Assembly: GCF_008807415.1 (NCBI RefSeq)
Contig: NZ_CP043626.1
Location: 3,968,001-4,032,000 of the forward strand
Reading direction: 5' to 3'
Origin: Pseudomonas denitrificans (nom. rej.)
GTDB lineage: Bacteria; Pseudomonadota; Gammaproteobacteria; Pseudomonadales; Pseudomonadaceae
DNA: 64,000 nucleotides
Shown: piece after piece, positions 24,227-50,272 of the stretch
Numbering within the stretch: the stretch's first letter is position 1
Layout of the letters: every line of letters begins with the position of its first letter
Notes under the pieces: model-generated
What the model saw: only the letters and a program-made list of their open reading frames with translations
What the model was told of the DNA's origin: nothing
The model's database searches: none
Position numbers and translations under genes: made by a program

Positions 24227-25099
24227 GTGCCGATCTTCACTCGCCGTTCGCTGTGGCCGCTGGCCGTGCTGTTGCTGCTCCTGTGCCGCCCTGCCCTGTC
24301 CGCCGACCTGTATTACCTGGGCCAGAAGATTCCCGACATCCAGCGCAACTGGACCAGCGCCGACTACCAGGTGCTGATCGACGCGCTGAAGAAGATCGAC
24401 GAGACCCAGGTCAACGGCCTGCCCCGGCGCAGCGGCGAGTTCACCGGGCCGATCTACCAGCGCATGGTCAGCGAGGAGAACTTCCGCCCGCAGCTGAACA
24501 TCTACGCCCCGCTGGAGCTGCGGCAGAACGAGGCGCGCGAGGTGCTGTTCAAGCTCAAGGAGCTGATGCGTCTGTACTTCAACTTCCGCGCCGCCAAGCA
24601 GCCCTATGGCGCCGAGGCGCTGGGCCTGATGAGCTACTCGCTGCGCGAACAGGCGATCCTGTTCAACCTGACGGTGGAATTCTGGATGACCCTGGCGCAG
24701 AGCGAGCAGCGCAACCCGGTGCGCCTGCAAGGCATGCAGGAAGCCAAGGCCGCCGCCTCGATGCTGACCAGCAGCGCGCTGGACTACCTCGGCCTCACCG
24801 CGCAGTTCGACCGCCAGGACCTGGTGCTCTACAGCGCCGAGCTGGCCAAGCAGTTGCCCGAACTCTTCATCCACCTGCCGCCTGAAGTGCGCGTGCAACT
24901 GCTGATGCGCGTGGATGAACTGTCGCAGAAGCACGCCTACCCGGAAGTGCGCGAGAACATGCGCGACCTGCTGCCGGTGCTGCAGGCGATCCAGGCGGAC
25001 GTGCAGAAGCAGCTGGCCGCCCCGGCCAAGGGGCAGTCTGTGCCCAAGGGGCTGGACCTGAGCGCGCCGCCGGAGGCGGAGAAGAAGAAAGGCATGTGA
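24227..25099 (+). CDS. Exported protein of unknown function
   Basis: A 290-residue protein I do not recognise. GTG start with AAGGAAAG upstream. A signal peptide (FTRRSLWPLAVLLLLLCRP, cleavage likely after ALSA at residue 25) sends it to the periplasm. The mature part is helical, with no Cys and no enzyme motif I can name, and ends in a Lys-rich tail. It is divergent from the alpha/beta hydrolase over 163 nt and followed by a repeat element, so it is probably monocistronic. Confidence 0.8.
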   Translation: MPIFTRRSLWPLAVLLLLLCRPALSADLYYLGQKIPDIQRNWTSADYQVLIDALKKIDETQVNGLPRRSGEFTGPIYQRMVSEENFRPQLNIYAPLELRQNEAREVLFKLKELMRLYFNFRAAKQPYGAEALGLMSYSLREQAILFNLTVEFWMTLAQSEQRNPVRLQGMQEAKAAASMLTSSALDYLGLTAQFDRQDLVLYSAELAKQLPELFIHLPPEVRVQLLMRVDELSQKHAYPEVRENMRDLLPVLQAIQADVQKQLAAPAKGQSVPKGLDLSAPPEAEKKKGM

Positions 25100-45536: not shown

Positions 45537-47669
45537 ATGAAATTCAAGTCGATCCAGTTTTCCGTGGTGGCGTTGGCAGGTGCCAGCGTTCTGGCAGTGG
45601 TCGCGGCGCTGGTGCTTTACGCGCTGTTCGCCGGCTCGCGGACTCAGGCGCTGGTGCAGGAGCGTACCCAGGCGCTGCTCGAGCAGGTGATCAACGATCG
45701 CCTGGTGGCGATCGCGCGCGGCCAGGTCGCGCAAATCCAGCGCGAACTGGAATACCCGCTCACCGTTGCCCGCGACCTCGCCAACACCAACGCCCTGCTC
45801 GACGAAACCGACGCCAACGGCCAGCCGCTGCTGGGCATCGGCCGCGCCGGCATGTCCAACCTGCTGCGCCAGACCGTGGCGCAGAACCCCAAGCTGCTCG
45901 ACGCCTTCGCCGGCTGGGAACCCAACGCCTTCGCCGGCAACGACAGCCAGTACTCCGGCCTGCCCGGCTACGACGCCAGCGGCCGCTTCATGCCCTGGTG
46001 GTACCGCAAGGACGGCGGCCTGACCGTGGAAGCCATGGGCGACACCCTGGAAAGCCAGAAAATGCAGCCTACTGGCGTGCGCGAAGGCGAGTACTACCTG
46101 TGTCCGAAAGAGAAGCACCAGCCCTGCATCATCGACCCGGCGCCCTACGAGATGGCCGGCAAGATGGTGCTGATGTCCTCGTTCAACGCGCCGATCATGG
46201 TCAAGGGTCAGTTCAAGGGCACCGTCGGCGTGGACCTGTCGCTGGACTTCATCCAGGACCTGCTCAAGACCGCCGACAGCCAGCTCTATGACGGCGCCGG
46301 CGAGATGGCGCTGATCTCCACCAACGGCCGCCTGGTCGCCTACACCAAGGACCCGGCCAAGCTCGGCGAACCCGCCAGCAGCGTGCTGGACGCCAGCGAA
46401 GTGGCCAACCTGGCCAAGCTCACCCTCGACCAGCCGCTGACCTCGGTGGACAAGGAACACGGCCACATCGAGCTGTTCCTGCCCTTCACCATCGCCGACT
46501 CCGGCGCGCGCTGGACCCTGATGCTGCAACTGCCGCAGGAAGCCGTGCTGGGTGACCTGAACCAGCTGCAGAGCGACCTGAAATCCCAGCGCGACAGCGA
46601 CACCCTGGGCATGACACTGGTCGGCCTGCTGATCGCCGCCATCGGCCTGGCCGTGATCTGGCTGGTCGGCCATGGCATCGCCCGCCCGCTGCGTCAGCTG
46701 GTCGGCATGCTCGACGATATCGCCCAGGGTGAAGGCGACCTGACCCGCCGCCTGACCAGCGACCGCGCCGACGAACTGGGCTCCATCGCCAAGGGCTTCA
46801 ACACCTTCCTGGGCAAGCTGCAGGGCATGATCGGCCAGGTGGTGACCTCGGTGCAGCACGTCAGCGATTCCTCCGAGCACACCGCTGACATCGCCATCCG
46901 CACCAACCAGGGCGTGCAGAAGCAACTGGCGGAGATCGAGCTGGTGGCCACCGCCGTCCACGAGATGACCGCCACCGCCCAGGACGTGGCGCGCAACGCC
47001 ACCCATGCAGCCGAAGCGGCCAACCATGCCGACCAGGCCGCGCACCACGGCAAGCGCATCGTCGAGAGCAGCTCCACGGCGATCCAGGCGCTGGCCAGCG
47101 AGATCGGCCGCGCCGTGGGCGTGGTGCAGTCGCTGGCCCGCGACAGCGAGAACATCAACGCGATCCTGGTGGCCATCCGCGGTATCGCCGAACAGACCAA
47201 CCTGCTGGCGCTTAACGCCGCCATCGAGGCTGCCCGCGCCGGTGAACAGGGCCGCGGCTTCGCGGTGGTCGCCGACGAGGTGCGCAACCTGGCGCAGAAG
47301 ACCCAGCAGGCCACCGAGGAAATCCAGTCGATGATCCAGCAGCTGCAGAACGGCACCCGCGAAGTGGTGCACGTGATGCAGCAGAGCCAGGACAAGACCG
47401 AGGACAGCGTGCGCCACGCCGGCGAGGCGGCCCAGGCGCTGGAGTCGATCACCCAGGCGGTGTCGGTGATCAACGACATGAACACCCAGATCGCCAGCGC
47501 CGCCGAGGAGCAGAGCGCGGTGGCCGAGGACATCAACCGCAACGTCAGCAACATCGGCATGGTCGCCAACCAGGTGGCCGGCGGCGCCGACGAGGCCTCC
47601 CAGGCCAGCGCCGAGCTGACCAAACTGGCCGAGCAGCAGCGCCGGCTGGTGAATCAGTTCAAGGTGTAG
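45537..47669 (+). CDS. Methyl-accepting chemotaxis protein (CACHE sensor)
   Basis: A 710-residue chemoreceptor. TM1 is at about residues 10-33, a large periplasmic dCACHE-type sensor at about 35-355, TM2 near 358-382, then HAMP (about 382-435) and the cytoplasmic MCP signalling hairpin. The tip [24 protein letters not shown] is at about residue 550, and the heptad-rich stems on both sides carry methylation sites. There is no C-terminal GWEEF-like pentapeptide, so CheR/CheB would not tether that way. CACHE sensors bind amino acids, organic acids or polyamines; the ligand is unknown. By memory equals PA4633. Confidence 0.94.
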
Positions 47670-47733
47670 ATCCAGCCCTGCGCACTGATCGCATCGGAGC
47701 AACTGTCTTCATCTGAAAGGCCGTGCCAGTGCG

Positions 47734-47868
47734 CCCCCTCACCCCAGCCCTGGCTGCGCGCCCCGCTCCTGAGGGAGAGGGGGCAGATCGTGCCGGCTGA
47801 TGCCATGGTTTCATCCTGCACCGAACGGTCCCCTCTCCCGCTTGCGGGAGAGGGTTAGGGTGAGGGGC
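47734..47868. repeat. CCCCTCACCC...GGGTGAGGGG repeat
   Basis: CCCCTCACCC at one end (from 47735) and its inverse at 47858-47867 flank an inner CCCTCTCCCG/CGGGAGAGGG hairpin (47831-47854, loop CTTG). This is a common intergenic palindromic family in Pseudomonas and relatives. It lies between the chemoreceptor gene and the SRAP gene. Confidence 0.8.
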
Positions 47869-47890
47869 TCTTGATCCTTGGGGTGCGTCG

Positions 47891-48502
47891 TCAGGCGGGG
47901 GTCAGGCATTCCGGCCCATTGCAGGTCGGGTCATTGATGAAATTCGCCAGCGCCTGCACGCGCAGCCGCGCCTGGGGCAACTGCAGCAGTTCCAGCAAGC
48001 GCGCGGCGGGCGTCGCGTTCGACAGCCATTGCGCCTGCTCCTGCACATCGAGAATCAGCGGCCGGCGCATATCGCCCGCCGCCTGGGTGAGCATCGCCAC
48101 GCTGTAATAGGTGTGGCCTTCCACCGGATACGCCTCCCACACCCCCGCAAAACAGATCAACCCGCCTCCGGAAACCCAGTGCGGCCGCTTGCGCACGCCG
48201 AGCCACTCATAGAAGCCATTGGCCGGCAGCAGGCAGCGACGCTGGGCGAAGGCATCGCGGAACATCGGCTGTTCAACGATGGTTTCCGTACGGGCATGGG
48301 CGGGGGTTCGCGACAGGTCCTTCAGCCAGGCCGGCGTCAGTCCCCAGCGCGCGAGGTCGGCATGGCGCGCGCCGTTCTCCTCGCGCAGCATGAGCACGCG
48401 GGCGCCGGGCGCGACGTTCCACTGCGGCTGCAGGTCGGCAGGGAAGCCGGCGTTTTCGGCAAGCTCGCGGTTCCAGCGGAACAGGGCGTAGCGGCTGGTC
48501 AT
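47891..48502 (-). CDS. SRAP (YedK/HMCES) domain protein lacking catalytic residues
   Basis: A 203-residue protein with the SRAP fold across its length: WNVAPGARVLML, ARWGLTPAW, TETIVEQPMFRDAF, RRCLLPANGFYEW and FAGVWEAY. SRAP enzymes bind abasic sites in ssDNA through a thiazolidine formed by Cys2. Here residue 2 is Thr, the Asn of NARxE is His69, the His of the HxRMP motif is Asp144, and only the Glu of GFYEW (E99) is kept. So it is probably not a cross-linking enzyme. The start at 48502 (MTSRYALFRW) is consistent with the family's immediate N-terminus; the frame opens 30 codons earlier, but no Cys follows there either. Confidence 0.9.
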   Translation of the reverse strand: MTSRYALFRWNRELAENAGFPADLQPQWNVAPGARVLMLREENGARHADLARWGLTPAWLKDLSRTPAHARTETIVEQPMFRDAFAQRRCLLPANGFYEWLGVRKRPHWVSGGGLICFAGVWEAYPVEGHTYYSVAMLTQAAGDMRRPLILDVQEQAQWLSNATPAARLLELLQLPQARLRVQALANFINDPTCNGPECLTPA

Positions 48503-48524
48503 TGGGACTCGTCGGGGGAGAAGG

Positions 48525-48791
48525 TCAGCAAAGCAGGACGCCGGGACCGCCCTCGTGATCGTCGGCGCAGCCCGGCAAGGGTTGCGCGGCATTGTACGCG
48601 GCGATCAGTTCGCGCGCCTGCTCGGCCACGTCATCCTCCACCCACAGGTGCAGCAGGCCCAGGCCCGGCAGCTCGCCGATGCCGCCGACCAGATGGCGTC
48701 CGCCCAGGTGCGACGAAATGCCCTCGTTGGCCAGCATGCCGCCCAGCAGCTCGGCTTCGATCAGGTCGGCGGGTTCGTAGATTCGCTGCAT
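48525..48791 (-). CDS. DUF2007 putative signal-transducing protein
   Basis: An 88-residue protein with the DUF2007 pattern RIYEPADLIEAELLGGMLANEGI, then LHLWVEDDVAEQARELIAAYN. Function unknown. Its ATG overlaps the TGA of the preceding CPXCG gene by one base, so they are translationally coupled; the SRAP gene follows on the same strand 22 nt later. Confidence 0.82.
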   Translation of the reverse strand: MQRIYEPADLIEAELLGGMLANEGISSHLGGRHLVGGIGELPGLGLLHLWVEDDVAEQARELIAAYNAAQPLPGCADDHEGGPGVLLC

Positions 48792-48973
48792 CAATCGTCC
48801 TCGCGCTGGACTTCCAGGGTCCAGTCCACGCCGTCGGTGTGGAGCTGGAACAGGATCGGCCGGCAACACACCGGACAATCTTCATAGTAGCTCTGGTCGC
48901 CCCCGGAGAGGTCAAGCACGGCCTCGGCCGGCTCACCGCAATAGGGACAGGAATAGTCCTGACTTTCGAGCAT
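48791..48973 (-). CDS. CPXCG-motif cysteine-rich small protein
   Basis: A 60-residue protein with paired cysteines C9/C12 (CPYCG) and C33/C36 (CPVC, followed by C37). These form a zinc-ribbon-like metal site. Family function unknown. It opens a small operon with the DUF2007 and SRAP-like genes. It is the first gene on the minus strand next to the divergent acyltransferase. Confidence 0.85.
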   Translation of the reverse strand: MLESQDYSCPYCGEPAEAVLDLSGGDQSYYEDCPVCCRPILFQLHTDGVDWTLEVQREDD

Positions 48974-49114
48974 CGCTGGTTCCCCCGTGACTTCCGTTTA
49001 TAATCGCGCGGTCTTTTTGGGTGCCCGCCTGGCCGGTGAGTCGGCGGCATACCCATCCGGGCCGTCTATTTCGCGGCCTGTCCCGTGATACCCCGAGAAT
49101 TCATAGAGAGCATG

Positions 49115-50272
49115 ATGGGCGAGTTCGAAGCCATCCGACCGTACAACGACGCCGAAGTCCCGGCTGTCCTGCAGCGCCTGCTGAGCGATGACGCCTTCCT
49201 CGGCGCGCTGGCGCGTTACCGTTTCCCGCGTCTGTCCGGTCCGTTCGGCTGGCTGCTCAGACCTCTTATAGCCCATCGGCTGGCCCGCGAAGTCACCGGC
49301 ATCCGCAGCGTCAGCGAGCTGCAGCACAAAGTCGAGCCCTACGTCGACCGGACCATCGAGCACGCCACCGACGGCGTCACCTATTCCGGCGTCGAGCGCC
49401 TGCAATCCGGCCGTGCCTACCTGTTCATCGCCAACCACCGCGATATCGTGGTCGACCCGGCCTTCTGCAACTACGCGATCTACCACGCCAAGCTGCCGAC
49501 GCCGCGCATCGCCATCGGCGACAACCTGCTGCAGAAGTCCTTCGTCAGCGACCTGATGCGCCTGAACAAGAGCTTCATCGTGCACCGCTCGATCAGCGGT
49601 CGGCGCGAGAAACTGGCGGCGTACCAGAACCTCTCGGCCTACATCAATCACTCGATCTGCCAGGACGGCCAGTCGATCTGGATCGCCCAGGCCGAGGGCC
49701 GCGCCAAGGATGGTGACGACCGCACCGATTCGGCGATCCTCAAGATGTTCCACATGAGCCGCAAGGACGAGCCGTTTGCCGAGGTGGTTCGCCAGCTGCA
49801 CCTGATTCCGGTGTCCATCAGCTACGAATACGACCCCTGCGATGCCGCCAAGGCCCGCGAGCTGTTCACCCGCGCGACCACCGGCGAATACACGAAGGCG
49901 CCGGGCGAGGACGACCGCAGCATCGTGCAGGGCATCACCGGCTACAAGGGCCGGGTGCACATCAACTTCGGCGAGGAGATCACCGGCGACTTCGCCGACG
50001 CCAAGCAGCTCGCCGCCGAGCTGGACAGGCAGATTCTCGGCAACTACCGGTTGTTCCCGGTGCACTACCTCGCCTACGAGGCCTCCGACCTGCGCGACGC
50101 CGCGCTGAACGTGCCGCGCGCCGAGACCCTGTTCAAGGCCGAGGAACTGCAGCGTGCGCGCACCGAATGGGAGCGCCGCCTGGGCGAATGCCCCGCGGAG
50201 CAGCGCGGCCACCTGATCCTGCAGTACGCCAACCCGGTGCTGAACCAGTACCGGCTCAAGCAGCAGGCATGA
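49115..50272 (+). CDS. Glycerophospholipid acyltransferase-like protein
   Basis: A 385-residue cytoplasmic/membrane-bound acyltransferase. The HX4D box is in FIANHRDIVVDPAF (near residue 110), followed by IHRS-like FIVHRSISGRREKL and the IAQAEGRAKDG acceptor segment (near 195). The start at 49115 (MGEFEAIRPY) has GAGAG at a short distance; an ATG at 49112 and a GTG at 49085 are also open. It resembles the 1-acyl-glycerol-3-phosphate acyltransferase superfamily; the exact acceptor is unknown. Confidence 0.82.
   Translation: MGEFEAIRPYNDAEVPAVLQRLLSDDAFLGALARYRFPRLSGPFGWLLRPLIAHRLAREVTGIRSVSELQHKVEPYVDRTIEHATDGVTYSGVERLQSGRAYLFIANHRDIVVDPAFCNYAIYHAKLPTPRIAIGDNLLQKSFVSDLMRLNKSFIVHRSISGRREKLAAYQNLSAYINHSICQDGQSIWIAQAEGRAKDGDDRTDSAILKMFHMSRKDEPFAEVVRQLHLIPVSISYEYDPCDAAKARELFTRATTGEYTKAPGEDDRSIVQGITGYKGRVHINFGEEITGDFADAKQLAAELDRQILGNYRLFPVHYLAYEASDLRDAALNVPRAETLFKAEELQRARTEWERRLGECPAEQRGHLILQYANPVLNQYRLKQQA

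Follow-up and report, generated by a model that had tools for sequence, protein, structure and literature searches.

The window analyzed here, the whole stretch of 64,000 nucleotides from Pseudomonas denitrificans (nom. rej.), encodes a protein with the fold of SRAPs, the family of E. coli YedK and human HMCES, both of which are canonical SRAPs that cross-link abasic (AP) sites through a thiazolidine. The window protein is no one-off, as its lineage is present in most sampled Pseudomonadaceae genomes (a match to it at E<=1e-20 occurs in 289 of 298), and it probably does something different from its well-studied relatives. The features of the locus are as follows.

47891..48502, minus strand: SRAP-fold gene, 203 amino acids, with Thr2, His69 and Glu99 and without the catalytic His (translation, Pfam PF02586, predicted model with structure match, alignment)
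48497..48499, minus strand: codon 2 (Thr) of the SRAP gene, at the place of the canonical cross-linking Cys2
48525..48791, minus strand: DUF2007 (PF09413) gene, 88 amino acids, directly upstream of the SRAP gene (Pfam, 44.9 bits, run on 48531-48791)
48791..48973, minus strand: Cys-rich CPXCG (PF14255) gene, 60 amino acids, first of the three same-strand genes (Pfam, 82.6 bits)
49085..50272, plus strand: divergent acyltransferase gene (PF01553), a conserved landmark of the locus (Pfam, synteny)

The window protein scores 140.6 bits against PF02586, above the curated cut-off of 27.1, and its predicted model and structure match place it in the SRAP fold, with the structure-match alignment beginning at residue 2 of YedK and HMCES. 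The preliminary description of this DNA had proposed a SRAP fold that lost three of its four active-site residues, and the alignment bears this out: residue 2 is Thr instead of Cys by translation, residue 69 is His where YedK has Asn75, the HxRMP His (YedK His160) is missing from a loop that is 6 residues shorter, and Glu99, which aligns with YedK Glu105, is kept. Because the three defining residues are absent, the window protein is, judged by profile and fold, a member of the SRAP superfamily but not a canonical cross-linking enzyme. The Thr2 start also holds. Nowhere in the open frame upstream does a Cys follow Met, Val or Leu, and just three open-frame codons precede MTSR in the orthologue L010, which rules out a true start elsewhere that would restore Cys2. 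Likewise, the gene is not broken, as had been stated: full-length relatives at 86-98% identity and a ratio of nonsynonymous to synonymous substitution rates (dN/dS) of 0.129 rule out a sequencing error or a pseudogene. Named close relatives are Pseudomonas proteins, e.g., that of P. nicosulfuronedens at 92%.

The altered active site goes with the locus. In a set of 170 distinct proteins from loci chosen for spread and not at random, 109 SRAPs are linked to the acyltransferase gene (i.e., an acyltransferase hit lies within 2.5 kb) and 61 are unlinked; the full Cys-Asn-Glu-His set is found in 0 of the 109 linked SRAPs vs. 56 of the 61 unlinked ones. Five unlinked SRAPs are exceptions: L045 and L048 with one residue changed each, L067 and L111, which are main-group proteins (see below) for which no acyltransferase neighbor was found, and L101; the linked protein L099 has a His at the place of the catalytic His within a shortened loop. 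Residue 2 of the linked SRAPs is Ser in 46, Cys in 36 and Thr in 27, encoded solely by Ser, Cys and Thr codons, with both types of Ser codon occurring. The start pattern used for this set limited residue 2 to C, S, T, A, G or V, while an earlier pattern that allowed any residue gave nothing beyond C, S, T and a single A; the ORFs (open reading frames) of L194 and L200 were excluded because no start was recognized, and in both a Cys follows the start codon. For comparison, 7 of 41 long non-overlapping ORFs of the window, picked mechanically as a rough yardstick, have Cys, Ser or Thr at residue 2, and 19 permit removal of Met. The initiator Met can be removed whether position 2 is Thr, Ser or Cys. 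A divergent DUF2007 gene lies 1-2 kb from each of four canonical SRAPs of family f20; where wider regions were examined it is on the opposite strand, and the acyltransferase gene is missing. One tree covers 96 of 109 rows, with 13 near-duplicate canonical rows left out, and carries the warning that long branches meet.

The SRAPs of the acyltransferase locus fall into several groups. In the main Pseudomonadaceae group (n = 83), residue 2 is Ser in 32, Cys in 29 and Thr in 22, residue 69 is His in 72 and Gln in 11, the loop of the catalytic His is deleted, and Glu99 is found in all 83 proteins, as are Arg4, Pro32, Trp53, Trp59, Arg71, Glu73, Trp100 and Arg146. Orthologues with Thr or Ser at position 2, for which the preliminary description proposed a survey, thus occur beside others with Cys2. 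A wider set of 121 proteins (the query and the 120 listed of 1458 found) has Cys in 56, Ser in 43, Thr in 21 and Ala in 1 at residue 2, His in 107 and Gln in 14 at residue 69, and Glu99 in 121 of 121. The Halopseudomonas group (n = 19), whose name rests on P0123, a protein that is named Halopseudomonas aestusnigri and is 100% identical to the L072 protein, has Ser (14) or Thr (5) at residue 2 and Ser (17), Thr (1) or Asn (1) at residue 69. Glu is lost in all 19 and replaced by Leu (11), Ile (3), Val (3) or Met (2), and Arg71 is gone in 12. The predicted model of a Halopseudomonas locus SRAP has an intact fold (pLDDT 94.9) with no catalytic residue left. In family f8 (n = 9) Cys2 and Asn are present, Glu has given way to Gln (5) or Asp (4), and the His is absent; its members L129-L133, at the acyltransferase locus, are about 201 residues long, with Gln for Glu and either Ala or Gly for His. 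Cys199, in an ECLTP motif, is invariant in the main group (83 of 83) and in Halopseudomonas (19 of 19), while 44 of 58 canonical SRAPs have Leu there. The locus SRAP of G095 (L104), labeled as the same species as the window genome, is just 64% identical and has Cys2, which points to a mislabeled species or a mixed assembly.

Changes were counted on a tree of 111 proteins from which the four sites had been excluded. Within the main group there are 7 changes at residue 2, 4 at 69, none at 99 and 35 at 144; those at residue 2 stay within Ser, Cys and Thr, those at 69 within His and Gln, and Glu99 is among the 31 of 202 positions without change. The preliminary description had also read the HxRMP motif as DMRRP with Asp144. 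The loss of His stands, but Asp144 is what the 6-residue deletion in the loop left behind, at a position that drifts freely, and the 35 changes there rule it out as a substitute catalyst. Median dN/dS values are 0.129 for the MTSR group, 0.219 for the MTAR group, 0.208 for Halopseudomonas and 0.301 for the canonical SRAPs of the genus. The gene of the MTSR group and the Halopseudomonas locus gene are under purifying selection, and by these medians the locus protein, that of Halopseudomonas included, is at least as constrained as canonical SRAPs.

All 25 genomes examined of the genus have at least one SRAP. The window genome, a single 6.88-Mb contig, encodes two further SRAPs, both with Cys2-Asn-Glu-His, so the search for a second, canonical SRAP that had been recommended was successful. 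A role in regulating such a SRAP, which had also been suggested, is nevertheless unlikely, because a locus-type SRAP is the one SRAP match in some genomes: a sole match occurs in 5 of the 25 genomes of the genus, all five proteins being locus-type, and in 23 of 37 Halopseudomonas genomes, several of the 23 being incomplete, where the 18 of 23 proteins examined are all locus-type. One canonical SRAP of the window genome, L001 (G000:C1:379379-380032), lies between lysozyme-like and CinA-like frames, named by eye, a setting that resembles a prophage or pyocin region. Extra SRAP frames are split, partial or stop-containing in four genomes of the genus (G003, G005, G007 and G008), which suggests that additional copies are gained and lost whereas the locus copy persists.

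The proposal of a small operon with CPXCG and DUF2007 proteins agrees with the three Pfam-matched, same-strand genes of the window, whose Pfam neighbors also include the acyltransferase and a methyl-accepting chemotaxis protein. The typical locus has the same order: CPXCG, DUF2007 and SRAP share one strand, and the acyltransferase gene points away from them upstream. A chemotaxis receptor and an M48 peptidase frequently follow downstream. SOS-regulated SRAP operons have umuDC, imuAB-dnaE2 and dinB as neighbors according to PMC3765255. At the window locus neither a LexA box nor a mutagenic polymerase neighbor was found by simple patterns: the pattern CTGT-N6-10-ACAG has no site within the 64-kb window, and a second LexA-type pattern with one mismatch allowed has 1, at 24308, vs. 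7.9 expected by chance. A promoter and terminator scan of 47600-49200 found nothing, including no promoter-like site. The PADLOC anti-phage defence models contain no family matching SRAP, DUF2007 or CPXCG, and identity as a defence system was rejected. A match to PHROG 1599 (unknown function) at 6.2e-34 tells only that phages carry SRAPs.

In YedK, the N-terminal amine of Cys2 makes a Schiff base with the AP site and the thiol then closes the thiazolidine, according to PMC9436759. As the same paper reports, C2A and C2S still form a borohydride-trappable Schiff base via the N-terminal amine and show Glu-dependent AP lyase behavior with no stable cross-link; the AP lyase rate of C2A falls 25-fold with E105Q and 2.5-fold with H160Q, Glu105 being the key catalyst, His160 serving ring opening and N75A having a very modest effect. 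The lyase step of T4 pyrimidine dimer glycosylase proceeds through the amine of an N-terminal Thr (PMC3285167). Judged by its residues, the main group keeps what a Schiff base needs, including a Cys, Ser or Thr N-terminus, Glu99, a hydrogen-bonding residue 69 and the pocket arginines, and dispenses with what is needed solely for stable trapping or rapid ring opening. Because these requirements are kept and the T4 enzyme provides a precedent for a Thr amine, we favor, tentatively and at somewhat less than an even chance, the reading that an old, locus-bound Pseudomonadales SRAP lineage gave up stable thiazolidine cross-linking and that its Glu99 group performs reversible imine or AP-lyase chemistry. 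Thr2 and Glu99 are compatible with an N-terminal amine AP lyase like the T4 enzyme.

Starting from a kept fold without the catalytic His and, in this genus, without Cys2, the mechanism might proceed as follows. Removal of the initiator Met would bare the Thr2 alpha-amine in the SRAP pocket, single-stranded DNA (ssDNA) would be bound at the AP site via the group-invariant Arg4, Pro32, Arg71, Trp100 and Arg146, and Glu99 would promote attack of the amine on C1' to give a Schiff base. With Thr or Ser at position 2 stable thiazolidine closure would be impossible, and the transient adduct would be resolved by hydrolysis (reversible shielding) or beta-elimination (AP lyase). The task of Asn75, i.e., holding the N-terminus, may have passed to His69 or Gln69. 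In Halopseudomonas, where Glu is also gone, only binding could remain. Several observations weigh against imine or lyase chemistry. At the same locus, Halopseudomonas has lost Glu in 19 of 19 proteins and yet the gene is under purifying selection, which argues that a role shared by the whole lineage needs no Glu chemistry. The limit at residue 2 may be steric, as a small Ser or Thr is also found in Halopseudomonas, and Glu99, one of 31 unchanged positions, could be structural. An AP lyase that cuts ssDNA would come at a high cost at replication forks. YedK, moreover, requires His160 for efficient ring opening (PMC9436759).

Binding without covalent chemistry, which the preliminary description had suggested, would make the protein a true pseudoenzyme, which binds or shields ssDNA or AP-site DNA with no covalent step and in which the remaining Glu is structural. 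We regard this as a real but doubtful possibility: it fits Halopseudomonas, which retains the protein without Glu and with a small residue 2 that suggests a steric limit, but Glu99 and the Cys/Ser/Thr N-terminus are never lost in the 83 main-group proteins, though His and Cys are, and DNA binding is itself unsure in Halopseudomonas given the loss of Arg71 in 12 of 19. YedK C2A and C2S, in addition, still form a Schiff base with Glu-dependent AP lyase activity (PMC9436759). It is improbable that the fold now serves another ligand or partner, such as DUF2007 or CPXCG, and has ceased to act on abasic DNA. DUF2007 is near 93 and CPXCG near 90 of the 109 distinct acyltransferase-linked SRAPs, the window lacks a LexA-type box by two patterns, unlike an SOS gene, and Cys199 is invariant in both large groups; however, in the main group neither the SRAP pocket nor the residues on the DNA side have changed, some loci have no DUF2007 or CPXCG, and neighborhood alone shows no interaction. 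An ordinary suicide cross-linker acting via another thiol, such as Cys199 or Cys90, or forming an oxazolidine with Thr2 is very improbable. In its favor, Cys199 is invariant in 83 of 83 main-group proteins, and the 29 of these with Cys2 could close a thiazolidine; against it, Cys199 sits near the C-terminus, an oxazolidine should be much less stable, and YedK without the Cys2 thiol makes no stable cross-link (PMC9436759).

The founding description of SRAPs calls Cys2 'absolutely conserved' (PMC3765255). Against this, a lineage in most sampled Pseudomonadaceae genomes shows natural Ser2 and Thr2 forms, and in two further groups the protein persists although the entire catalytic set is gone. A literature search, with most subscription journals outside its reach, found no paper on SRAPs without Cys2. 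The locus proteins are named SOS response-associated peptidase or abasic site processing protein in databases, and where the locus SRAP is the sole match such annotation misleads inference of AP-site protection.

Compared with YedK and HMCES, the window protein has Thr2 instead of Cys2 and His69 instead of Asn75, lacks His160 and 6 loop residues and is 203 instead of about 222 amino acids long. The Halopseudomonas locus SRAPs (e.g., P0123) share its locus, fold, Ser or Thr at position 2 and lack of His, but differ in having Leu, Ile, Val or Met for Glu and mostly Ser at the Asn place, with Arg71 often gone. The Salinicola/Halomonas/Chromohalobacter-type SRAPs (P0175 and relatives) also miss Cys2 and His, but mostly have Ala2, Cys at the Asn place and no Glu. 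These proteins (P0175 and P0183-P0301, named from Salinicola, Halomonas, Chromohalobacter and others; 120 listed of 261 found) are a second large SRAP set without Cys2: of the 120, 113 have Ala2 and 118 have Cys in place of Asn, with a conserved HCARAE motif, Val, Ala, Leu or Ile at the Glu place, and Glu and His in none. The single DNA locus of this type examined (L101) has no DUF2007 or acyltransferase neighbor. The likeness to T4 pyrimidine dimer glycosylase (endonuclease V) lies in the N-terminal Thr alpha-amine as proposed Schiff-base nucleophile; it is an analogy only, as sequence and fold are unrelated as far as seen, and the absence of the T4 enzyme from the structure matches listed excludes nothing. 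It is conceivable, if rather unlikely, that in this natural Pseudomonadaceae SRAP suicide cross-linking was swapped for reversible or turnover chemistry with an exposed Thr or Ser amine and Glu, converging on the chemistry of T4 endonuclease V on an unrelated fold, with Halopseudomonas as a fully non-catalytic end stage. Like the YedK C2A and C2S laboratory mutants (8d2m; PMC9436759), the window protein has a residue 2 without thiol and keeps Glu, with Schiff-base or lyase activity predicted; unlike them, it is natural and conserved and also lacks Asn and His. As natural counterparts of the C2A, C2S and E105 mutants, the locus SRAPs offer a direct test for a conserved SRAP role beyond stable cross-linking.
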